Virus record (IMG/VR): IMGVR_UViG_3300021185_001264
Coordinates: 1 to 64,000 of that record
Strand: one strand, 5' to 3'
From: a virus
DNA: 64,000 bases
Part shown: positions 33,866 to 62,604 of the stretch, piece after piece
How positions within the stretch are numbered: position 1 is the stretch's first letter
Layout of the letters: each line of letters opens with the position of its first letter
The notes under the pieces: model-generated
Seen by the model: only the letters and a program-made list of their open reading frames with translations
What the model was told of the DNA's origin: nothing
The model's database searches: none
Program-made: the position numbers and the translations under genes

Positions 33866-35659
33866 TTATTCCGTCAATGTAGTTACGTTAACTGTGATGT
33901 CATCACCACGAATTGTAATAATACGATCTTTAGGTGCCTTGATATCTTTCGCTACTGAGTTAGCAATGAATTTAATTGCACCACCTTCGTAACTATCTAC
34001 AATTAGATTTGACAACTTAATCGCACCTGTGCTATAATCAATCGTACCAACACTACGCTTAAACACTGATACATCAGCAGTCGAAGCAGTCACAGCCATC
34101 ATCTTACCAGCACCATCGTCTTGGAGTGTCACAAGCGTACCTTCGATAGTCATCTTACTAGTACGTACAGCTGGTGTAAATCCTGTCAAGCCTGTTGTAG
34201 CGTCATACGCATATGGCTGAACAAGTGCAGTCTCGTATGAGAAAGCAGGGTTCTGGACAGTACTCAATACAGGTACGTATTGAATAATTGGTGAAGCAAA
34301 GATACTTGAAGAGATAATCGAATTGTCTACAGCATCCAATGCCGCTGCCAAACGAGACTGACGTAGTGTCTTATTAAAGTCAGAAAGAGAATCAGTAGAG
34401 TATGCTGATATGGCATTTGTCACTTCGCTTCGTATCTGTGATGCACTCTTTGTTGTGATATTAGGATCGAATACTACGTCTACTATAGTATCAACAAACA
34501 AGAATTTCGCAGGTACAAACACTGGCTCGATAGTCAATGGTGTCTTGTCTTTGAGGTAATCAGCGAATGATGCAATCTCAAAGTCAGCAGCCCCTTCGCC
34601 GCCAGTCACATCAACAGAGATAATTACCTTACCAAACTGAGGAGGTTCTACTTCGTCTCCACCATATACTGATATCGCTTCGATATTAGGAAAACGATTA
34701 CGTAGTAGTATCTCGTAGTCACGTGTCGTAACAGCACGTTCTTGTACTTGTAGAGCCTTAGGAGCAAATGTTCGAATAGACGCAACACTCTCTGCTGAGA
34801 GCCCGCCATTCGAAATCGTTGATACTGTAATCGTAACATTCGAGGCACCAGTTAAACCATTGCTCGTCATAGACCTAACGCCATTCGCATCTTCTGCTGA
34901 ACTGATACGATACTTTGCTGTAATGATATCACCTTGCGTAGGCTGTTTACCGAACTTGTCTTGTCCAAACTGTAGAGAGTATTTCTCATCTTCTTCTGGC
35001 TGAAGATAGAATACTTTGTCAATAGCAGTAATGCCAAATATGTCTGTCTTATATACGTACTCTTCACCATTCACTTCTACGTAGAGTGAGCGAGTATCTA
35101 TCATACTATTAGACAACACTGTGTCTGAAATGTCAAGTGTTTCTGTAATTAATCTACCTTGAAATGCTTCTACAGCCGCTACAGTGAATGTTCTAGGTAA
35201 GTATACACCAGGTGTATTAGGGCTAGCAAGAGTAGCAACTTGTGATGTGACTGCTGTATATGCTTTCTCAGTAAGGAATGTGAACGTCTTATTGCCACAC
35301 TTACCATTAATCTTTGTATCTTTCGGAATAATAAAGAAATTTCCTGCTTGACTTGCAGTGATATTAAATGTTACAATAGCTTTAGCTGATCTACGTGAAC
35401 GTGGTAGATAGTTTAATTCTTTTGCGTGTGATATCATACTGTTACGCTCTTGAGCAGAGTCAAGGAACATCTCACTAATCATCATGTTATAATAGTAGTT
35501 GTTATAGAACGTATTGTATGCGAGTAAGTCAAGCAATACATTCATGTTAGAGCCTTCGAAGTCGTAGTCAGCAAACCTATCTTGATTGCTTAGATATGTC
35601 TTAAGTGCCGACTTCGTTTCAAAGAAGTCTAAATTTTGTACTGGTGAAATGTTTGCCAT
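33866..35659 (-). CDS. 6: Baseplate wedge protein gp6
   Basis: 597 residues (T4 gp6 is 660). The N-terminus shows the gp6/gpJ-like pattern: LKTYLSNQDRFADYDFEGSN, MNVLLDLLAYNTFYNNYYYN and MISEMFLDSAQERNSMISHA. The central TRDYEILLRNRFPNIEAISVYGG stretch is the baseplate-J core. gp6 forms the inner ring of the baseplate with gp25 and gp53. It starts with a TAATG overlap on the gp25 stop codon, so it is translationally coupled. Confidence 0.88.
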   Translation of the reverse strand: MANISPVQNLDFFETKSALKTYLSNQDRFADYDFEGSNMNVLLDLLAYNTFYNNYYYNMMISEMFLDSAQERNSMISHAKELNYLPRSRRSAKAIVTFNITASQAGNFFIIPKDTKINGKCGNKTFTFLTEKAYTAVTSQVATLASPNTPGVYLPRTFTVAAVEAFQGRLITETLDISDTVLSNSMIDTRSLYVEVNGEEYVYKTDIFGITAIDKVFYLQPEEDEKYSLQFGQDKFGKQPTQGDIITAKYRISSAEDANGVRSMTSNGLTGASNVTITVSTISNGGLSAESVASIRTFAPKALQVQERAVTTRDYEILLRNRFPNIEAISVYGGDEVEPPQFGKVIISVDVTGGEGAADFEIASFADYLKDKTPLTIEPVFVPAKFLFVDTIVDVVFDPNITTKSASQIRSEVTNAISAYSTDSLSDFNKTLRQSRLAAALDAVDNSIISSSIFASPIIQYVPVLSTVQNPAFSYETALVQPYAYDATTGLTGFTPAVRTSKMTIEGTLVTLQDDGAGKMMAVTASTADVSVFKRSVGTIDYSTGAIKLSNLIVDSYEGGAIKFIANSVAKDIKAPKDRIITIRGDDITVNVTTLTE

Positions 35660-52931: not shown

Positions 52932-53618
52932 TTATTTAATTTCTGGAAATAACGATTCTGATATGAATGCATCGACATCATCCGAATCAAGACCCAAACT
53001 TTTCATCACATTTGGGGTATGTGGATTCATCTTCTGATGCTCTGCATAATAGTTTTGCGATGCTTTGCCTAAATCACTGTCAGCGTATCCGTTATACTTA
53101 CCAATGTTTTTCTTGTAGTAACACAGACCTTCTTTGGCAACCTTACATATCTGATCGATCTCTGCTGGTTCTTTGACCATACCAGCGGCAATCATGCTAT
53201 CACTGAAGATTGCTTTTGCCCATGGCGGCAGTTCTCGTTCTCTTTTCCATTGTAATGGTTTGGCAATTGTTGCGAAGTGTTCCATCATAGGATGTTCTGA
53301 ATTAGACGTAGAAGAGAAATCATAAAATGCACCTGTCATCTTATTGGCACCTGCAATCACATCAAACCCGTATATTGGTCCGTCATTATGTGTATGAGGA
53401 AAGACACATACATGCATCATCCACAGCTTCTTCTCTTCACGCATATCGACCACATCAATGTGTGCCCTACGATAATTGTTATTTGACCATACTCTGTTTA
53501 CCCAACCAGGCTGATTGAATCTATCCATACCAGGCTCACGTATTTCAGTAGCATCTGATGATAGCTGTTCGATTAGATTGTTTTGAAGATCAATCAAACT
53601 ATTCCATATAATAGACAT
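52932..53618 (-). CDS. Ferredoxin-dependent bilin reductase (PcyA/PcyX-like)
   Basis: 228 residues. The family core is clear: WSNNNYRRAHIDVVDMREEK, LWMMHVCVFPHTHNDGPIYG, FDVIAGANKMTGAFYDFSS. His69 and Asp86 are 17 residues apart, the same spacing as the catalytic His88/Asp105 of PcyA, and the remembered phage enzyme PebS lacks that His. It therefore belongs nearer the PcyA/PcyX side, where viral PcyX enzymes turn biliverdin into a reduced bilin. Electrons would come from host ferredoxin. The start overlaps the stop of the small membrane gene (TAATG); heme oxygenase lies one gene upstream. Confidence 0.88.
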   Translation of the reverse strand: MSIIWNSLIDLQNNLIEQLSSDATEIREPGMDRFNQPGWVNRVWSNNNYRRAHIDVVDMREEKKLWMMHVCVFPHTHNDGPIYGFDVIAGANKMTGAFYDFSSTSNSEHPMMEHFATIAKPLQWKRERELPPWAKAIFSDSMIAAGMVKEPAEIDQICKVAKEGLCYYKKNIGKYNGYADSDLGKASQNYYAEHQKMNPHTPNVMKSLGLDSDDVDAFISESLFPEIK

Positions 53619-53764
53619 TACAGCACCGTTGCTCCGACTACTGTCGTAACTATTATTAAGACGTATAAACCATACATCATTATACTTAATTTTTCAAGTC
53701 TTTTCTGTCTCTCTCCAAAAGCAACCATCAATCTTTCGAATGATTCATCCAATTCGCTCTTCAT
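53618..53764 (-). CDS. 48-aa one-helix membrane protein inside the bilin operon
   Basis: 48 residues from the ATG at 53764, which has GAGGAG seven nt upstream; a longer in-frame start at 53833 has no such site and overlaps heme oxygenase more. The N-terminal half is a charged helix (MKSELDESFERLMVAFGERQ), and the C-terminal half one membrane helix (MMYGLYVLIIVTTVVGATVL). It overlaps the heme oxygenase end by 20 nt and the reductase start by one base pair of codons (TAATG). No family recognised; it could tether or regulate the bilin enzymes. Confidence 0.7.
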   Translation of the reverse strand: MKSELDESFERLMVAFGERQKRLEKLSIMMYGLYVLIIVTTVVGATVL

Positions 53765-54302
53765 GCAATAACTCCTCAAATAGTCTAATCGCAAATGCAA
53801 AGCATTTATTTGCTTCATCTGCCATATTATCATTCAACAACAGTCGAACATTCTGCTTCATCTCTTCTTTGTTTTCAAACTGATACATGGTACCACTACC
53901 AGGAACACGTTTTGCAATGATAGCACCACCGTACATATCTCCAAAGTGTCTTACATATAAGTGCGAGATGATTCCGTCTACGTCTTCGTTCATTAAAAGG
54001 TTTTCAATGTGTCCGACATATTCTTGGGTTGACTTGCATATGAGTTCGCTATAGGTAAATCCGTAGATTTCCTCAAGTTCATGCATGTCATCTATGATCT
54101 TTTTTGCCCTAAAAATTGACCTGAACTCTTCTGGAAATGCGAGTTCACGCAACGCTGATTCGAGAACAACGTAGTTCTGGGACTGATTGATTAAGTATCT
54201 GTAATATAGAAAGGGATCAATATTACCACTGAGTAATATCTTGGCAAAATCTTTACGTTCTGCTGATCTATGGTTTTCTGCCGTTAGCTGTTTTAAATTC
54301 AA
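53745..54302 (-). CDS. Heme oxygenase
   Basis: 185 residues. The N-terminal LTAENHRSAER contains the proximal heme ligand His11, and the distal helix reads HLYVRHFGDMYGGAIIAKRV with the G-D-x-x-G-G motif (121-126). The enzyme opens heme to biliverdin, iron and CO, giving the substrate of the reductase two genes downstream. The start is TTG at 54302 with GGAG seven nt upstream; an in-frame stop two codons earlier rules out a longer form. The leader carries a 9-bp inverted repeat. Confidence 0.9.
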   Translation of the reverse strand: MNLKQLTAENHRSAERKDFAKILLSGNIDPFLYYRYLINQSQNYVVLESALRELAFPEEFRSIFRAKKIIDDMHELEEIYGFTYSELICKSTQEYVGHIENLLMNEDVDGIISHLYVRHFGDMYGGAIIAKRVPGSGTMYQFENKEEMKQNVRLLLNDNMADEANKCFAFAIRLFEELLHEERIG

Positions 54303-55090: not shown

Positions 55091-55648
55091 TTATTTATAA
55101 AAAATGTGAGACTCAATTCTGCTAGTTTTACTATATGCTTTAGACCAATAAGGATTAACATATGATGCATGATACATCGTGGCGCCGTCCGTAATGTCTC
55201 GTTCAATGCCATAGTTTTTCATTACCCACTCAGCGTTATACATCGCTTCTTTAAATTTTACTTTATCGTGAGGAGTATCGTTCTTACCGTCACAGTACCA
55301 AGAGAATTGGCACTTATTACGAATAGGATTACCTCTGCTGTTTAAGTGAGACTGATACACTACATCACATATCGTATCTGGATACTTTTCGCTGTAGACA
55401 CGATTCATTGTAACCATGCCTACTGCTTCTTGTCCTAGAGTAGAATCACTTCTTGCTTCATGGTAGATATTAAGAGCCATACATTGTAACTGCTCCTGAT
55501 ACTGTAGGTCTGCAATCTCTGCTTCTATTACTGCATTACGTTCAATGGCAGCCTGTTCTTGTGCTTTAAGTTCTTCGACAGTTAATATCGTAACAGCCAC
55601 TATGGTTATTAAGGATAACGATCCTGTAAGAATACTCGATAGTTTCAT
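55091..55648 (-). CDS. SleB/CwlJ-type cell wall hydrolase, probable endolysin
   Basis: 185 residues. The N-terminal ~27 residues are a hydrophobic signal or anchor (LTGSLSLITIVAVTILTVEE), followed by a short helix and the Hydrolase_2 domain: MALNIYHEARSDSTLGQEAV with catalytic Glu64, MNRVYSEKYPDTICDVVYQS, CQFSWYCDGKNDTPHDK and the C-terminal TDGATMYHASYVNPYW. The family cuts peptidoglycan glycan strands. The uncut N-terminal segment suggests export and membrane anchoring before lysis (signal-arrest-release type). It has its own sigma70-like promoter. Confidence 0.88.
   Translation of the reverse strand: MKLSSILTGSLSLITIVAVTILTVEELKAQEQAAIERNAVIEAEIADLQYQEQLQCMALNIYHEARSDSTLGQEAVGMVTMNRVYSEKYPDTICDVVYQSHLNSRGNPIRNKCQFSWYCDGKNDTPHDKVKFKEAMYNAEWVMKNYGIERDITDGATMYHASYVNPYWSKAYSKTSRIESHIFYK
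55092..55099 (-). promoter_or_regulatory. Late promoter box ahead of the P-loop kinase
   Basis: Minus-strand exact TATAAATA overlapping the endolysin stop codon, 33 nt before the kinase GTG. Confidence 0.6.
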
Positions 55649-55744: not shown

Positions 55745-57796
55745 TTATTTAGTCGTTGGGCGATACACTCCATCCCAATCTTTAGGCAGTTCTCTAGTCT
55801 TCATCTCTTTGCATCGATCAATCCATACGTCATAATATCCGTCCATAGTGCCTAAAAAGCACCCCTTTAAGTCATCACAGAACTTGATTGCCATGTCAAA
55901 TTTCTGCATTCGATATAAATCTAGCATCTTTATGTGCTGTTTAGTTTCAAATACATATGCAGAGTTTTCATTCCACCAAGAGTGTTCTCCTAGAACAGTG
56001 AAAATTCGTACACCTTCGTTCTTGCCCTTTACAGCAATACAGTCTAGTTCAAGTGTGGCAAATACATCATCGATCTCTTTTGCCGTCTCTTCTCCAATAA
56101 TAGTTTTCACGCCATATCCTTTCGTTTGTCCTTCGAGTCTGGCTGCCAAATTCACTGCATCTCCTAACACAGAGTAGTCGAACCTTTGCTCAGACCCCAT
56201 ATTACCAACAACGACTGCGCCGCTATTGATTCCTACGCCTATATTTATTGGTAACAAACCGTCACTCTCTAACTCAGCATTTAGGACTTCTAATGCTTCG
56301 TACATTTGTACGGACGTCAAACACGCTTTTCTTTCTTGCTCTTCTACATCAAGAGGAGCATTCCAGAAAGCCATAATACAATCGCCCATATACTTGTCAA
56401 TAGTACCCTCATTCTCCATAATGATATTAGTCATAGGAGTTAAGAATCTATTCACAAGTTCTGTCAGACCCTGTGGATCCGTCTTATATTGCTCTGAGAT
56501 GGGTGTAAATCCACGTATATCACAGAACAAAAATGTCATATGTTTAGTCTCTCCACCGAGTTGCAGTAACTCAGGATTCTTTTGTAGTTTTTCTACCATA
56601 GGTGCTGATAGATATGTGCCAAACTGTTTCTTAATTCGCATCTTGGCGAAGTACTCTTGCCCGTATTTGACTCCATACACGTGAGCAAACACTAGTATAG
56701 CCATCGCACCTTGCATCATTATGATATATAATTCTGCATAATTGTTGAACCAGTATATAGGAAAGTATATCGATGATCCGATCAGCAATAGCGGTGGTAC
56801 CCAACCAAATCTCACATAACTCAATCCAACTATTAGTATACCTAATCCTAGAATAGTTGCAAGTTTAGCAAAATCAGCAAGAGGTGGAGTTACGATGTTG
56901 TATTGGTTTTTGACTGAGGTAAATGCTCTTGCAGTTACATCATGTCCATATGCGGCACCTGATGCTGTCGGCACTGGGTTAGATATTCCGTCTGCTGTTA
57001 CACCCACGAATACTGTTGCACCTTTTAAATCGTCAAACTCTGTAGTTAGATCGTATCGTTTAAAGTCATAGTTTGGATTTATCCATATACGGCTTATTGG
57101 ATCTGTATTGATTGTAGGAAATCCTTTGACACGAACTGCCTGTACTCCAAACTCATTGCTCTTAACCTGAAACGTATTTGACCCAGTGTATGCCTTGAAT
57201 ATCTCTAAGATGATTGATGGGTAGAGTTTATCTTGTACGCCAGCAATCATAGGTAATCTTCGAACTACTCCGTCAATCTCAGGCAATGTGTTTGCAATGC
57301 CTATGCCAGTAGCGGCATTTTCATACTTCTCTAAGTTTGCGGCTATGCCAGGATAATTGTAAATATAATCCAAAGCATCACCACCAACCTGTACAATAGC
57401 TGTACTGTATGCGGATCTATTCTGAGCCTTATTGCTAGGGAAGTGAGAAAGAATGACTCCGTTCGGAAGCATGAGCGTGAAGCCTTCGTCTTCACCTGTT
57501 CGATCTTCTTCTGGAAATGATAGATTAAATACGATAACACCTGCATTCGCTTGACGCAATCTGAGGATTAAATCCCCATAAATGTTTCTTGGTAGTGGGT
57601 ATTGTCCATGTACTTCTAAAGTCTTCTCCGAGATGTCTACGAGAACGACATCCTCAATGAATTGCTTTTCCTTTACGATCAACTGGTCACTGATTCTCAG
57701 ATCAATGCTCTGAAGCAGTGTAGGATTTAATATTGTTAGCCACGTTAGAGTTAACGTAGTGATGATAGCGAATAATGGCGAAAGCAGTATTTTCAT
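55745..57796 (-). CDS. CHASE2-transmembrane-class III nucleotide cyclase
   Basis: 683 residues. N-terminal anchor helix (8-28), CHASE2 sensor in the periplasm (about 30-305: VVLVDISEKTLEVHGQYPLP, VIVFNLSFPEEDR, GATVFVGVTADGISNPVPT), then three membrane helices (about 307-375) and a cytoplasmic cyclase domain (about 415-600). Catalytic residues are visible: metal Asp426 (LFCDIRGFT) and Asp472 (KYMGDCIMAFWNAP), base-recognition Lys468 and Asp546 (SVLGDAVNLAARLE), and Asn549/Arg553. Lys and Asp at the base sites point to ATP, so cAMP is the likely product. It appears intact. GAGAGG precedes the ATG. It follows the curli/FecR genes in the same direction. Confidence 0.9.
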   Translation of the reverse strand: MKILLSPLFAIITTLTLTWLTILNPTLLQSIDLRISDQLIVKEKQFIEDVVLVDISEKTLEVHGQYPLPRNIYGDLILRLRQANAGVIVFNLSFPEEDRTGEDEGFTLMLPNGVILSHFPSNKAQNRSAYSTAIVQVGGDALDYIYNYPGIAANLEKYENAATGIGIANTLPEIDGVVRRLPMIAGVQDKLYPSIILEIFKAYTGSNTFQVKSNEFGVQAVRVKGFPTINTDPISRIWINPNYDFKRYDLTTEFDDLKGATVFVGVTADGISNPVPTASGAAYGHDVTARAFTSVKNQYNIVTPPLADFAKLATILGLGILIVGLSYVRFGWVPPLLLIGSSIYFPIYWFNNYAELYIIMMQGAMAILVFAHVYGVKYGQEYFAKMRIKKQFGTYLSAPMVEKLQKNPELLQLGGETKHMTFLFCDIRGFTPISEQYKTDPQGLTELVNRFLTPMTNIIMENEGTIDKYMGDCIMAFWNAPLDVEEQERKACLTSVQMYEALEVLNAELESDGLLPINIGVGINSGAVVVGNMGSEQRFDYSVLGDAVNLAARLEGQTKGYGVKTIIGEETAKEIDDVFATLELDCIAVKGKNEGVRIFTVLGEHSWWNENSAYVFETKQHIKMLDLYRMQKFDMAIKFCDDLKGCFLGTMDGYYDVWIDRCKEMKTRELPKDWDGVYRPTTK

Positions 57797-57821: not shown

Positions 57822-57986
57822 CTATTTATCAATCTTTACACGAGGTCTCCAGTGTGGATTTTCGACATATTCTAGCTTTTTCGTTGGTCTGTACATGAAC
57901 TCTCCATTGTCCATTTTTAGCTTCTCGACCTTTCCAGTGTTTACCCACTTTGATGTCCAACAGACTACAGGAGATTTCTTAGTCAT
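57822..57986 (-). CDS. 54-aa hypothetical protein between curlin fusion and cyclase
   Basis: 54 residues, basic, Trp- and Lys-rich (MTKKSPVVCWTSKWVNTGKV, then EKLKMDNGEFMYRPTKKL). The ATG at 57986 overlaps the end of the curlin-fusion gene by 8 nt, and the stop is 25 nt before the cyclase ATG. No signal peptide, so cytoplasmic. Function unknown; too short for common ORF cut-offs. Confidence 0.65.
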   Translation of the reverse strand: MTKKSPVVCWTSKWVNTGKVEKLKMDNGEFMYRPTKKLEYVENPHWRPRVKIDK

Positions 57987-59265
57987 TTTGATATATCGTT
58001 AAGTTGCAACCACCGGTGGCATTACATGTACCATTCACGCCAGAACCGTCTGTCATGGTATGTGGTAAAGTGTATGTTTTATTAGATGCTCCTGCTTGAT
58101 TTAGTTCGAAGTTCCAAGGCTCTGATCCATCTAGTGCAATTGTGGCTTCGTGGTCTCCACTTCCAGACTGAACCACATCAACCTCATGACTGTCTCCCTC
58201 GACATCTAAGTCTAAGTAATGACTGCCTGAACCAGTCTGACTGACTAGTACATCGTTTAAATCTCCATCAATACGTACAAACGCTCCTTTGTCTCCACTG
58301 CCTTTTTGTATAAGATCAAATTCATTGCTGTCACCTAGAATAGCGATTTCGGTATACCCATGAGCGCCTAGATCCATGTCTTGATCAATGTCGATAGCGT
58401 TGGTATTCCCTAGTATCGATAGTAATACGTAACTGGGACCACCTGCTTGCTCTATGAATATGTCATTACTAGAACCGTCAATGTCCATTTCAATAGTGTT
58501 TCCTTGTCCGTTGTCTGCCAGTACTTGAGCGGCGGCCACTCTCGTTGCTTGTGCTGTTGTTAGTCCTGAAGATCCATATACTGGAGTAGGAGCAGAAGTT
58601 GTAGTAGATGATGCTAAGAAATTTCCCATGTTATCTGCGTAAGTGTGTGTTGACGTTAACTGTCCGTATCCAAACGTCACAATTACCATTCCATCTCCAT
58701 AATCCCATACGTACCAACTATACCAAGTTGACGTTGAACTATTTGCGGCCATTCCTTCACCACCGCTTGCTGTGAATAGGTAATCTGGACCTGGCAGAAC
58801 GTTTTCACTTGAGGTGCTTGACGCATAATCTCCAATTGCCACTGAGCCGTAGCAATTATTACATCCGTTTGATAGAGATATGCTTCCCACGCTCATCACG
58901 TTTTCTATAAGAGATTCGATATTACCGATTCTATTCGTTGCACCATTAGGTGCCGCAATGATTAGTGTTCCACCACCGTCAACATAGCTGTCGTATACGT
59001 TTCTACAGTTACTACCACAGTTTGACGTACCTGCTATATCAATAACCATGTCCATATTACTCACATCGTTTGAACTCACCGATGTCGTATTACTGCCTGA
59101 TACAGTCCAGCCTGCATCCTCTAATATACTTTTTAGGTTAGCGTAATGTGCGCTGGTAGCATTGGTATAATATATAAACACACTATCTGCATAAGCATTT
59201 GTTGGAATGAATAGTAGTAATATGAGTGCTAAACTACTGAGACTGCGTAATATTGATGATAACAT
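57979..59265 (-). CDS. Exported protein: Rossmann-like domain fused to curlin-type repeats
   Basis: 428 residues from the ATG at 59265 (GGAGG five nt upstream); a GTG two codons earlier would overlap that site. Signal peptide to about residue 26 (ALILLLFIPTNAYA). Residues ~28-220 resemble a class I glutamine amidotransferase-like/ThuA fold without catalytic residues (VFIYYTNATSAHYANLKSIL, MDMVIDIAG, YVDGGGTLIIAAPNG, DGMVIVTFGYGQ). Residues ~245-425 contain five to six curlin-like repeats (G-x-x-N-x-x-x-x-x-Q): SSNDIFIEQAG, NTNAIDIDQD, DSNEFDLIQKGSG, DLNDVLVSQTGSG, DSHEVDVVQSGSG and WNFELNQAGASN. The start overlaps the FecR gene by 32 nt. A nucleator or cell-anchored curli subunit is a reasonable guess. 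Confidence 0.8.
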   Translation of the reverse strand: MLSSILRSLSSLALILLLFIPTNAYADSVFIYYTNATSAHYANLKSILEDAGWTVSGSNTTSVSSNDVSNMDMVIDIAGTSNCGSNCRNVYDSYVDGGGTLIIAAPNGATNRIGNIESLIENVMSVGSISLSNGCNNCYGSVAIGDYASSTSSENVLPGPDYLFTASGGEGMAANSSTSTWYSWYVWDYGDGMVIVTFGYGQLTSTHTYADNMGNFLASSTTTSAPTPVYGSSGLTTAQATRVAAAQVLADNGQGNTIEMDIDGSSNDIFIEQAGGPSYVLLSILGNTNAIDIDQDMDLGAHGYTEIAILGDSNEFDLIQKGSGDKGAFVRIDGDLNDVLVSQTGSGSHYLDLDVEGDSHEVDVVQSGSGDHEATIALDGSEPWNFELNQAGASNKTYTLPHTMTDGSGVNGTCNATGGCNLTIYQND

Positions 59266-60340
59266 CGCCACCTCCGTTTAGTGTGATCAGTGCTGGCACC
59301 GCATCTTTGTACATATTTACTTCTCCGTCGGTATCTCTAGTAGTCGTGACACTTGTGATGTGTGTCGAACTTTCACTAAAAACACCAATTGTTTCTTCAT
59401 CATAGTATGCCTGTACGATATCTCTATACTGATTATATGTAGGCAACACTGGATCTATTTCTAACTGTTCACCTCGCAACATTGCGGTGGCATCTAAAAT
59501 GTTTACAAGAAAATCGATGTCTAGTCGGTTGATGTCGAGTTCTAGAAATTCTAATTTATCTTCTTCCAAATTATCGTCATTAAGTTCTGAGTATTCTAGT
59601 AGGTCACTGTCCAAATATTCTGAAGCTTCAGCTTGTGCGATATATCCTACACCCTTCAACTCATCAGGTGGTGCAATGATTAGCATATTGTCAATACCTC
59701 GACCGTCAAGATCAATAATCATGGGCTTCGATGGTAATGACATTCCATCAGACACTAGTGTTGCTTGAAAAGCTTGATTGAGTATTACCATACCAATATC
59801 AGTCGCTACCTCGATTTCTCCTGTCCAACATGGATCACCATTTGAGGGACAAGTAGGAAGAAGTATTACTAGACTCCTGCCTAATTCGTCTACCGTCATA
59901 GTAAAATCTGTTCCTCTTACCGATATAGTAGCAGTGGGTGTTCTAAGTTTGACATTTTCTCTAGAATTTGCGGCAATGGCACCAGAAGAATATCTCACTG
60001 TTCCCAGTGCAACATTCATAGCAAGTTTGCCTGTTCCCGCATTGGGATCGTAAATGAAGTCATCAATCACTAGCGTACTTTGCTCAGATATGCTTACCTT
60101 AGTATCATCTTCAAAAGTAAGACCCATTTTGGTCTTAGCTGTAGATATCTCATCATTCATTGAGATGCCAACACCTTTACGAGATTCGATTATCTCGCTT
60201 TCACCTCTTTTTATCTGTGCGGCATTACCAGTTTGCTCAGTAACGCTTCCTACTTCATCCACACTAGCACTAGCAAATGTGTTTAGTGTAATCAATAAAA
60301 GTGATAGTAAAACACTAGTTCTGTTTAATGTCAATGACAT
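59234..60340 (-). CDS. Exported FecR-domain protein
   Basis: 368 residues. Signal peptide to about residue 25 (LLSLLLITLNTFASA). The FecR domain is at about 30-150: RKGVGISMNDEISTAKTKMG, LTFEDDTKVSISEQSTLVID, VALGTVRYSSGAIAANSREN, VKLRTPTATISVRGTDFTM. The rest (LDRGI-type segments, acidic EYSELNDDNLEEDKLEFLEL) is not recognised. FecR-type domains occur in sigma-regulator systems but also in exported proteins beside CHASE2 cyclases. There is no transmembrane anti-sigma part here. It overlaps the curlin gene upstream by 26 nt and the fusion gene downstream by 32 nt. Confidence 0.85.
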   Translation of the reverse strand: MSLTLNRTSVLLSLLLITLNTFASASVDEVGSVTEQTGNAAQIKRGESEIIESRKGVGISMNDEISTAKTKMGLTFEDDTKVSISEQSTLVIDDFIYDPNAGTGKLAMNVALGTVRYSSGAIAANSRENVKLRTPTATISVRGTDFTMTVDELGRSLVILLPTCPSNGDPCWTGEIEVATDIGMVILNQAFQATLVSDGMSLPSKPMIIDLDGRGIDNMLIIAPPDELKGVGYIAQAEASEYLDSDLLEYSELNDDNLEEDKLEFLELDINRLDIDFLVNILDATAMLRGEQLEIDPVLPTYNQYRDIVQAYYDEETIGVFSESSTHITSVTTTRDTDGEVNMYKDAVPALITLNGGGDVIINITQSQ

Positions 60341-61004
60341 TACTGTTGCCGTCTACTGTCATAGTAATTTTAGGCGAATCGTTACCGTCTTGCAATATAT
60401 CAATACTATTGAAACTACTTGAAGCTGTGCCACCTACCGTAATAGTGTTAACAGCATCAGCGGCATCCAACTCCATATTAATTGAGTTGTAGTCACCATT
60501 TGCAACGATAGTAGTTTTGGTATCCACTACAGCAACTTCAGTTGTACAGCCAGCAATAGTTCCAGATTGTGTTACTGAACTACCACTACCACTTACAGTA
60601 CCAGTAGTAGCCTTTCCGCTGCCGTCGTTAGTTCCACAGACAGTTACTAAGTTACTATCACCAGTTATTGTTGAAGTGATTTCAGTGCCAGTAGAGGCAA
60701 TACCTATTACCGTTTCGTTACTGTCACCAGTATTGACGATTGCAATATCTGTGTCATTGGATCCAGCGGCAGTAGATATGTCTGTCTTGTTGCTGTTACC
60801 TGTTTGAGTGATATCAATATCTTGGCTGTTACCTGTTAATGTTGTTGCCGTAGTTGAATTACCAACTAAGTTGCCATTTCCTGTTTGGACAATGTCAATA
60901 GTAGATGAACTACCAGCCTGATCTATATACACATCACTAGCAAACGCTGGCGCTGTGATTGCACTTAATAGTGCTAAAATTAAAAGTTTCTTATTAAAAC
61001 TCAT
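60315..61004 (-). CDS. Curlin-repeat protein (CsgA/CsgB-like)
   Basis: 229 residues. Signal peptide to about residue 22 (LLILALLSAITAPAFA). The mature chain contains curlin-like repeats with the N-x-x-x-I-x-Q-x-G pattern: DVYIDQAGSSSTIDIVQTGN, GNSQDIDITQTGNSNKTDIS, TDIAIVNTGDSNETVI, and at the C-terminus FNSIDILQDGN plus VDGNSNVIDIKQN. The middle part is less regular and carries two Cys. Such repeats stack into a beta solenoid and form amyloid fibres outside the cell. AAGGGAAAG precedes the ATG. The 82-nt gap to csgG holds a small GTCC/GGAC hairpin but no clear promoter. Confidence 0.85.
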   Translation of the reverse strand: MSFNKKLLILALLSAITAPAFASDVYIDQAGSSSTIDIVQTGNGNLVGNSTTATTLTGNSQDIDITQTGNSNKTDISTAAGSNDTDIAIVNTGDSNETVIGIASTGTEITSTITGDSNLVTVCGTNDGSGKATTGTVSGSGSSVTQSGTIAGCTTEVAVVDTKTTIVANGDYNSINMELDAADAVNTITVGGTASSSFNSIDILQDGNDSPKITMTVDGNSNVIDIKQN

Positions 61005-61086: not shown

Positions 61087-61875
61087 CTATTTAACGAAGT
61101 CCCAGTATCCTTTTCTGGCACCTTCTTTAATTAACTCTACAACCGATTGCTCGATTGCTACTCTGACTGCGTAGTTTACAGGTTCATTGATAGTGTGTCC
61201 CATCTCTGCCTCTAAACTATTAGTTCCCATATCAAAAAATCTAAAAAATGTCATGGAGGTACCTGTGCTTATAATCGTCTTTGTTGTTGAGACACTTATT
61301 AACACTTCTCCTGACTGTACACTCACCATTCTCATAGTAATAGTTACGATGTCTTGACGATACTGAGTACTAGGACCAACTCCTAAATACCTTGCTCCTG
61401 CTCCTCCAGTCAAAACATTCGAATCATAACCTATGATGCCGCCTTCTACTAATACTCCAGCGAACAACATAGGTCTTAATGCTCTTTCATCTCCGACAGA
61501 TGCTCTACTTTGTCTGATTATCTGCCGTTCTTTTGTTAAATTCTCTAGCCCTACTCTTTCTACTACCTGAAACCATTCACCATTACCTACTTCTTGTAAA
61601 GCCTTAATCAGCCAAACTTCAGCACCTTGAGTTACCGCAGTACTTATATTTGCCATTCTTTCACTCGGCTTTCGTTGACCTGTTTTGTCTTCAAAGCCAT
61701 ACACTGCAACTACTGCTTTGCCTGTTGATGGCCCCTTTATAGTCAAAAACTCAGTATTCTCGTTTTTGATTACTTTAGCAGGTTCCGGCTCAGGCATAAA
61801 TCCAAAGTCTTCAGTAAGTGTAGCACATCCGCTAGTCAGTAGCAAAAGTGCTGATATCATAAAAAAGTGTTTCAT
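61087..61875 (-). CDS. csgG: CsgG-type curli secretion channel lipoprotein
   Basis: 262 residues (E. coli CsgG 277). The lipobox LLTSGC puts the lipidated Cys at 17. The core is clearly CsgG: VVAVYGFEDKTGQRKP, ANISTAVTQGAEVWLIKALQ, WFQVVERVGLENLTKERQII, LFAGVLVEGGIIGYDSNVLT and GGAGARYLGVGPSTQYRQDI, then SGEVLISVSTTKTI. CsgG forms a nonameric outer-membrane pore for curli subunits. In the pore loop the Asn is kept, but the position of E. coli Phe56 is Ile and Tyr51 is replaced. The C-terminus stops right after GYWDFVK, lacking the E. coli tail. The start overlaps the csgF stop (TAATG). Confidence 0.93.
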   Translation of the reverse strand: MKHFFMISALLLLTSGCATLTEDFGFMPEPEPAKVIKNENTEFLTIKGPSTGKAVVAVYGFEDKTGQRKPSERMANISTAVTQGAEVWLIKALQEVGNGEWFQVVERVGLENLTKERQIIRQSRASVGDERALRPMLFAGVLVEGGIIGYDSNVLTGGAGARYLGVGPSTQYRQDIVTITMRMVSVQSGEVLISVSTTKTIISTGTSMTFFRFFDMGTNSLEAEMGHTINEPVNYAVRVAIEQSVVELIKEGARKGYWDFVK

Positions 61876-62354
61876 TAGAATGCAAAATCTCCAACTGGTA
61901 CATCGAACTCAGAAATTATATCACCGTTTGAGTCCTTTATAGTTACATATATTCTTCCGTCTAGTCTCATCCATGATATCTCATCGCCAAAAGGTGACTC
62001 TGCAATATACCATTCTCCGTCAACTGTTCCTTCACCTGTCTCACCAAAAAGTTGGTCCGCAATATTCTTAGATAGAGTAGCATAAATTCTTGATTCCAGA
62101 TTGTTCTGGAATTTGTATGCGTTAGTACTTTTACGTTCTCTCTCTAATCTGTCTTCCTCTGCTTTCGCCTCGTCCTTTAATTCCTTTTTTCTGTTTGCTT
62201 GTATTTGCTCAATGGTCAAAATGTGCGAACTGTATCCTTGACCGTTAAAGGCTGGGGACAAAAAGTCATGCGTCAACTCACTTGCGTTTACCAGATTTGG
62301 TATTAACATTACTGACAGTGTTAGTGTTAGTCCTTTCAATAGTCTCTTTTTCAT
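61875..62354 (-). CDS. csgF: CsgF-type curli assembly factor
   Basis: 159 residues (E. coli CsgF 138). Signal peptide to about residue 24. The mature N-terminus (ELTHDFLSPAFNGQGYSSHI) corresponds to the segment of CsgF that plugs into the CsgG channel (F-x-N-P-x-F-G-G in E. coli). A charged helix (KKELKDEAKAEEDRLERERK) and a C-terminal beta part (DGRIYVTIKDSNGDIISEFD) follow. CsgF links CsgG to the nucleator at the cell surface. It starts inside the end of the upstream gene (77-nt overlap) and ends in csgG. Confidence 0.85.
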   Translation of the reverse strand: MKKRLLKGLTLTLSVMLIPNLVNASELTHDFLSPAFNGQGYSSHILTIEQIQANRKKELKDEAKAEEDRLERERKSTNAYKFQNNLESRIYATLSKNIADQLFGETGEGTVDGEWYIAESPFGDEISWMRLDGRIYVTIKDSNGDIISEFDVPVGDFAF

Positions 62355-62604
62355 TTTTCTCTTTTTCCTGTTTTTCTAGGACAAGGTCTAACTTCGTTTT
62401 AAGTCTAATCAGATCGTTGTCCAGCATACGCACTCTATCGATTAAAGCGATAAGCGTCATATGCGATTCATCTATAACGGGATTAACTTCCTCAGTTACC
62501 CATTTCCAAATATAATATATAAAATACCCTAAACCGCCAGCGGCAATTATTGGGAACCCATACTGACTTACAGCCTGGGCTAAATCTAGCTCTACTACAT
62601 CCAT
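62278..62604 (-). CDS. Holin-like small membrane protein 1
   Basis: 108 residues: one N-terminal membrane helix (YGFPIIAAGGLGYFIYYIWK), then a coiled coil (HMTLIALIDRVRMLDNDLIR, LKTKLDLVLEKQEKEKN) and a Lys/Thr/Asn-rich tail. It shares the G-F-P-I-x-x-A-x-x-G-G-x-x-x-(F/Y) start and an L-(I/D)-x-R-(V/I)-x-x-(L/M)-(D/N)-N-(D/E) helix with the 62819-63097 protein, so they are probably paralogues. The design (one helix plus coiled coil) resembles small phage holins and BhlA/YvrJ-like proteins. The role is not established. Its 3' end overlaps csgF by 77 nt. Confidence 0.7.
   Translation of the reverse strand: MDVVELDLAQAVSQYGFPIIAAGGLGYFIYYIWKWVTEEVNPVIDESHMTLIALIDRVRMLDNDLIRLKTKLDLVLEKQEKEKNEKETIERTNTNTVSNVNTKSGKRK

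Follow-up and report, generated by a model that had tools for sequence, protein, structure and literature searches.

The window analysed here, a 64,000-nucleotide stretch of a 66,783-base contig (virus record IMGVR_UViG_3300021185_001264), is, judged by its gene content, part of a T4-like marine phage genome. It holds T4-like tail and baseplate genes, which rule out a bacterial origin, and its baseplate wedge protein (33866-35659) has matches in 2,360 phage records, the closest being the Sinorhizobium phages phiN3, phiM19 and phiM12 (38-39% identity). An operon on the minus strand, running from 62354 to 55745, encodes CsgF, CsgG, a curlin-repeat protein, a FecR-domain protein, the product of what we call the slot gene, and a CHASE2-cyclase (Table 1). 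The order csgF-csgG-curlin-FecR-second curlin gene-cyclase is common to the window and the phages HTVC008M and Melnitz. The small gene before csgF occupies the position of the published 'HK' gene, named a histidine kinase in a passage of PMC9599517; no kinase match was found in it, and its holin-family match is weak. Downstream of the operon, the cell-wall hydrolase is possibly a lysis gene, and the bilin reductase (closest phage record, Pelagibacter phage Mosig, 51%) and heme oxygenase form a pcyX/hemO-type pigment cassette. Of 164 loci, contig copies included, 43 have relatives of these two genes close to the curli operon, so pigment and curli cassettes often travel together.

Table 1 Features of the curli locus and its surroundings in the window.
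Feature	Position	Strand	Evidence
Small membrane protein preceding csgF	62278-62604	-	phrog_18771 7.4e-31; phrog_4898 holin 1e-3
CsgF	61875-62354	-	PF10614 1.7e-10
CsgG pore lipoprotein	61087-61875	-	PF03783 3.5e-54
First curlin-repeat protein, candidate main fibre subunit	60315-61004	-	Curlin_rpt 3e-5
FecR-domain protein, last strand curlin-like	59234-60340	-	PF04773
Slot gene (head-curlin fusion)	57979-59265	-	ATG start; GTG alternative at 59271
Signal-peptide-like start of slot protein	59191-59265	-	By eye
GATase-like (IFT52/OST48-type fold) head and linker	58561-59190	-	Predicted model, fold search
Curlin module: five strict repeats and one degenerate repeat, conserved Cys-containing tail	57982-58560	-	
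CHASE2 and adenylate/guanylate cyclase	55745-57796	-	PF05226 2e-30, PF00211 8.2e-18
Cell-wall hydrolase, directly downstream of cyclase	55091-55648	-	Hydrolase_2 1.8e-23
Bilin reductase adjoining heme oxygenase	52932-54302	-	Fe_bilin_red 8.6e-13; heme oxygenase 9.6e-16

The slot gene is an uninterrupted reading frame from a GTG at 59271 to 57979. The ATG at 59265, which overlaps the FecR stop by 32 nt, is the better start because GGAGG lies just 5' of it (by eye), in agreement with the start chosen in an earlier note on this DNA. From there the protein begins with a putative signal peptide, recognized by eye. The earlier claim that a Rossmann-like head and curlin repeats are fused in one exported protein was borne out as regards the fusion, with the frame open and both folds predicted. 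An assembly artefact or chance fusion was rejected, as the same fusion turned up in 60 loci and evolves under purifying selection.

The C-terminal part contains the five to six curlin-like repeats that had been claimed. Five strict copies start at residues 262, 284, 309, 332 and 355 (counted from the GTG; spacing 22-25), whereas none of 10,000 shuffles of the C-terminal part yielded more than one, and a sixth, degenerate copy follows the fifth by eye; the Pfam model Curlin_rpt (PF07012) matches above its cut-off (2.7e-6, 27.6 bits versus 20.7). The full-length AlphaFold model places twelve consecutive beta strands here, with pLDDT mostly 78-93 and lower towards the C-terminus. Modelled alone, the module was predicted better than in the full-length model (pTM 0.81; residues 21-140 at 86-97). 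Its best VIA matches were SufD/SufB-type beta-helices (Z 13.1-15.6), with mostly pectate lyases and other beta-solenoids below them. Foldseek against the PDB gave no match at E 0.001; among the matches listed there was no solved curli structure, and FapC came up at no better than E 1. With this pTM, and with beta-helices as the matches at Z of at least 13, the C-terminal part is a beta-solenoid in the predicted model. Among NCBIfam models the slot protein lies nearer to CsgB (2.1e-4, 21.1 of 165 bits) than to CsgA (3.7e-3, 17.2 of 160), far below both equivalog cut-offs.

The head is an alpha/beta domain in the full-length AlphaFold model (36-row alignment, mean pLDDT 74), with pLDDT of about 70-88 in blocks of ten residues, and is followed by a disordered linker before the beta strands. 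Fold searches with this predicted model matched the N-domain of IFT52 (Z 16.8, rmsd 3.1-3.3 over 197-200 residues), the middle domain of GH42 (Z 16.2), OST48/Wbp1 (Z 15.2-15.5), a ThuA-like protein (Z 14.5) and true GATases (Z 12.8), with the carbohydrate deacetylase Agd3 also among the matches. The N-terminal domain is thus Rossmann-like, as proposed, and related in predicted fold to the ThuA and GATase groups (Z 12.8-14.5), so that neither of the two outcomes named in the earlier note as refuting it, an unrelated head fold or a C-terminal part other than a beta-solenoid, was obtained. No Pfam match to the head was found, and its IFT52/OST48 (GIFT-type) likeness is a fold match alone. Class I GATases have a conserved catalytic Cys and His. 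Across 27 head sequences the only invariant cysteines are C85 and C89, which by eye, without superposition, lie outside the strand turn expected for a nucleophile, and no histidine position is kept in 24 or more of the 27. The earlier remark that no catalytic residues are obvious therefore holds, as no Cys-His pair is conserved, and 'amidotransferase-like' suits the modelled head as a fold term only: the fold agrees, but no catalytic Cys and His are conserved.

We compared the slot across 160 loci recruited through FecR or CsgG (the best 80 of at least 506 FecR relatives and the best 80 of 409 CsgG relatives), together with the loci of HTVC008M, Melnitz and L003. Excluding reading frames shorter than 150 aa, starts more than 400 bases after FecR, and exact duplicates or substrings left 77 slot proteins, among which near-copies remain (for example L129/L130, L143/L144, L150/L153 and L011/L096). 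The curlin module is present in 65 of these, and its Cys-containing tail is kept in 58 of the 65, with or without a head; the first curlin of the window is without this tail (by eye). The 12 proteins without the module comprise nine barrel-ended proteins, a nuclease (L020) and two of no assigned type (L056 and L058). This nuclease, a DNA/RNA non-specific endonuclease (L020:6978-7736, 1.6e-58) with a signal-like start, lies directly behind FecR in a phage curli operon.

Heads of the 65 module proteins are GATase-like (6), PA14 (5), X+PA14 (1), F5/8-C (1), X+F5/8-C (9), X alone (7), short beta (7) or of other kinds (two), and 27 proteins have none. Clustering with trimmed linkers and filters separated the GATase-like, short-beta and two single-member groups; untrimmed clustering merged 36 of 38 heads because low-complexity linkers were included. 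Multi-domain proteins held together a cluster of 23, which inspection by eye, Pfam and BLAST divided into PA14, F5/8-C and 'X'. PA14 exceeded the Pfam cut-off in L001, L012, L092, L110 and L118, and the PA14 part of L041, which Pfam did not call, was assigned by BLAST to other PA14 heads; F5/8-C exceeded the cut-off in the curlin-linked L023 and L034, the other members being assigned by BLAST. PDB sequence searches with the X and short-beta heads returned nothing useful.

Closely related loci differ abruptly at the head. The C-modules of L013 and L110 are one residue apart, and at the DNA level L109 (the L013 contig) and L110 share 91% identity as far as the FecR end, do not match across the head and then share 98.7%. 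HTVC008M, with a PA14 head, and L222, with a GATase-like head, are 69.6% identical in DNA before the break and 75.2% after it, and their C-modules are 90.1% identical in protein. Headless L129 and PA14-bearing L118 have flanks of 81% and 88% identity around an unmatched slot. Even where both heads are GATase-like (L239/L240), synonymous divergence is 1.43 in the head versus 0.13 in the module. In eight pairs, head and module are both under purifying selection, with dN larger in the head in all eight. A FecR tree of 85 rows, which includes 19 additional GATase-like rows, was built quickly and drew long-branch warnings; on it, the GATase-like label requires 12 changes, no fewer than nine of them forced by starred branches, and PA14 requires five changes for five rows. 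Without the additional rows, all labels together need 20 changes. The gene after FecR is a cassette in which a conserved curlin module is kept and heads, several of them unnamed domains, are exchanged or absent.

Heads also occur on slot proteins with another kind of end. Nine exported-looking, partly homologous proteins of 490-1445 aa with mostly unnamed N-terminal domains (L025, L061, L070, L071, L073, L076, L078, L080 and L140) all end in an outer-membrane-barrel-like strand, a motif chosen after the ends had been seen; it occurs in 37 of 1,151 reading frames of at least 200 aa (the nine and their copies included) and in none of the 65 curlin-module proteins. All nine loci have csgG, curlin and FecR genes upstream, and an HMM search found the cyclase downstream in seven; in L025 a separate search placed it at the contig end. 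The X+F5/8-C heads of L070 and L071 match curlin-linked heads at 49-57% identity over 334-409 residues, with F5_F8_type_C above the Pfam cut-off in both (1.6e-12 and 3e-11). When the window model was compared with viral predicted structures, the best match (220 columns) was A0A6J5R861, which comes from an uncultured phage and bears the annotation autotransporter beta-domain protein. Pfam and NCBIfam barrel families did not match the nine proteins, and a PDB sequence search with the barrel part gave nothing useful. From the C-terminal motif and the one annotation, an outer-membrane barrel would be a second anchor for heads; if this is right, it is a strong argument that the cell surface is where heads act.

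A scan with the head alignment found 60 viral loci with a GATase-like N-domain, some of them near-copies. FecR lies directly upstream of the head in 53, the other seven starting within about 310 bases of a contig end, and curlin repeats follow the head in 53, the other seven contigs ending first. Searching 50,697 phage records by tblastn with the window protein, L222 and the HTVC008M FecR returned the same six records each time, all HTVC008M and Melnitz strains and none with a GATase-like head. The viral status of most other contigs, which are mainly fragments, rests on the IMG/VR label; a T4-type portal was found in 4 of 23 viral contigs in one set (plus the L166 genome) and in 4 of 19 in another, and a terminase in 1 of 19.

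Curlin repeats occur in 9 of 289 genomes from the class of the L166 genome (Alphaproteobacteria), in 37 of 296 from the phylum of the L168 genome and in 6 of 274 from the class of the L181 genome. Not every match became a locus; among the 90 distinct bacterial reading frames with at least three strict repeats, one (L295) has more than 200 residues before the repeats. The head-curlin architecture that the earlier note suggested seeking in bacterial curli loci was not found among these 90, and within this sample and motif a fused head seems to be particular to phages. With the head alignment A6, no match was found in 240 Alphaproteobacteria genomes (a search without a positive control) or in plasmids. 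A scan of species genomes with two strict FecR peptide patterns, which can miss divergent bacterial FecR, gave seven close matches (L165-L171) on curli-operon MAG contigs of 6.8-60.8 kb that carry the labels of six unrelated groups, Flavobacteriaceae, Maricaulis, Neomarinimicrobiota, Saprospirales, Planctomycetaceae and Synechococcus; these are probably misbinned phage contigs in reference genomes.

The FecR-domain neighbour may itself belong to the fibre. FecR signalling regulators have a cytoplasmic anti-sigma part; none was found in the window protein, which matches PF04773 only and has a signal-like start by eye. Its curlin-like last strand is conserved across 11 sequences with an invariant Q, and the NCBIfam models closest to it, at scores well under cut-off, are the surface proteins Lsa33 and LipL45. 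A regulator role for the phage FecR protein is suggested in a passage of PMC9599517; from these sequence features a secreted structural part seems likelier.

We think it somewhat probable that the product of the slot gene is a minor component of phage-encoded curli, bearing an exchangeable binding head. A Sec signal would take the slot protein into the periplasm of the infected cell and the phage CsgG/CsgF pore would export it; the C-terminal module would form a beta-solenoid and join the fibre of the neighbouring curlin protein. Outside, the linker-borne head would bind a glycan or protein on neighbouring cells, on particles or on the infected cell itself, and recombination of head cassettes with the amyloid module kept would change the bound target. 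The phage could benefit, for example, by having new hosts held close. Many members of the PA14 and F5/8-C families bind glycans. The swapping of unlike heads among related viruses suggests, at the level of sequence, a display of interchangeable hooks on the infected-cell surface. The case for this reading draws on the complete operon, the two predicted folds, purifying selection, head swaps in close relatives and like heads on barrel-ended proteins. Part of the evidence weighs against display. In E. coli the CsgG-targeting signal comes right after the signal peptide, a place that the head occupies in the slot protein. CsgG-type pores take unfolded chains, and a head of 200 residues, possibly with a disulfide, would need to cross the pore, a possible further obstacle. 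The head is not essential to the curli system, since 27 of the 65 module proteins have none. No clumping was seen in Melnitz-infected cultures, according to a passage of PMC9004378; the Melnitz slot protein has no head.

The earlier note had offered a nucleator or a surface adhesin on an amyloid base, and the adhesin is the better supported because heads are swapped and like heads occur on barrel-type proteins. That note did not mention that the gene belongs to a phage, that its operon type is published or that the head is one of several exchangeable kinds. As a CsgB-like nucleator or anchor, the slot protein would dock by its tail at CsgG/CsgF and template the main curlin with its solenoid, and the head would serve assembly, as a pore plug, periplasmic hold or spacer, and not binding. 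The weak likeness to CsgB and the retention of the Cys-containing tail point this way, but unrelated heads on near-identical modules and head types common to barrel-ended proteins are left unexplained, and we regard such a role as unlikely. It is very improbable that the head is a fibre-immobilized enzyme (an amidotransferase, deacetylase or glycan-processing enzyme): although its fold includes GATases, the ThuA-like group and Agd3, the Cys-His pair is unconserved, the best fold matches (IFT52, OST48 and the GH42 middle domain) are domains that we take to be non-catalytic, and PA14 and F5/8-C, which are not known as enzyme families, sit in the same slot.

The recognition-type diversity of the heads would also suit superinfection exclusion, proposed for phage curli in a passage of PMC9599517, in which heads mask the infected cell's own receptors or glycans and keep other phages off; a fibre is a costly receptor mask, however, and we consider this improbable. 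Given swappable heads, sibling capture or exclusion fits better than a bare pore. That the curli genes are a repurposed lysis-timing pore, with the curlin-like proteins as relics or plugs, was proposed for Melnitz in a passage of PMC9004378 and would accord with the weak holin match of the small upstream protein. Relics would decay, yet the curlin module is the slower half of the protein, under strong purifying selection with its repeats kept, and the premise that csgA/csgB are missing misfits both the window operon and the Melnitz record, which lists two curlin-repeat genes; of all these readings we give this one the least credence.

Returning to a curli subunit with an exchangeable binding head, a wider version can be held only tentatively, at somewhat less than even chances: a dedicated surface-display locus of aquatic T4-like phages, with a fixed slot behind FecR in which heads pass from phage to phage and are set on a curlin module exported by the phage CsgG pore or on an outer-membrane barrel. 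If true, viruses would encode an adhesin system that is rapidly exchangeable and acts before lysis, with a logic comparable to tail-fibre shuffling, but on the host surface.

Both phage curli and their second curlin gene have been described before; new is the slot after FecR as a head cassette. Proposals for phage curli, in passages of the respective papers, include 'sibling capture' (PMC7029224), a lysis-timing pore (PMC9004378), and superinfection protection or cofactor import (PMC9599517). Those passages, supplements aside, mention neither heads nor head exchange; head fusions are likewise unmentioned in the consulted part of a bacterial curli survey (PMC3521004), where 'fusion' and 'N-terminal' have zero occurrences, and no mention of curlin heads was found in wider literature listings, which cover few subscription journals. 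What phage curli do has so far been a puzzle, with a lysis pore, nutrient uptake and 'sibling capture' all suggested and none agreed upon. Exchangeable heads, and like heads on barrel-ended proteins, point to infected cells displaying binding domains and render the question of function testable, with the cultured HTVC008M (PA14 head) and Melnitz (headless) as natural comparison phages.

The closest known system is the type VIII secretion (curli) cluster of pelagiphages (HTVC008M and Melnitz, in passages of PMC7029224 and PMC9599517), which shares the operon order and likewise belongs to T4-like phages; its slot carries a PA14 head in HTVC008M and none in Melnitz, whereas that of the window carries a GATase-like one. 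Bacterial CsgA/CsgB share curlin repeats and the CsgG/CsgF partners with the slot protein, but their repeats come without a large folded head, which here precedes them. The head has the same predicted fold as the IFT52 N-domain, OST48 and ThuA/GATase-like domains, at about 10-12% identity; unlike them, it is fused to amyloid repeats, would lie outside the cell and has no conserved catalytic pair. Autotransporters (type V) offer a parallel through those slot proteins that bear X+F5/8-C heads and have barrel-like C-termini; the window protein, by contrast, has a curlin module at its end. In engineered curli display a binding domain is likewise placed on a curlin subunit, and single-domain antibodies function as curli fusions in E. 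coli, as reported in PMC9477280. If the binding-head reading is true, the phage proteins would be a natural counterpart to such display; they differ from it in being natural, in having an N-terminal head and in exchanging that head through recombination.
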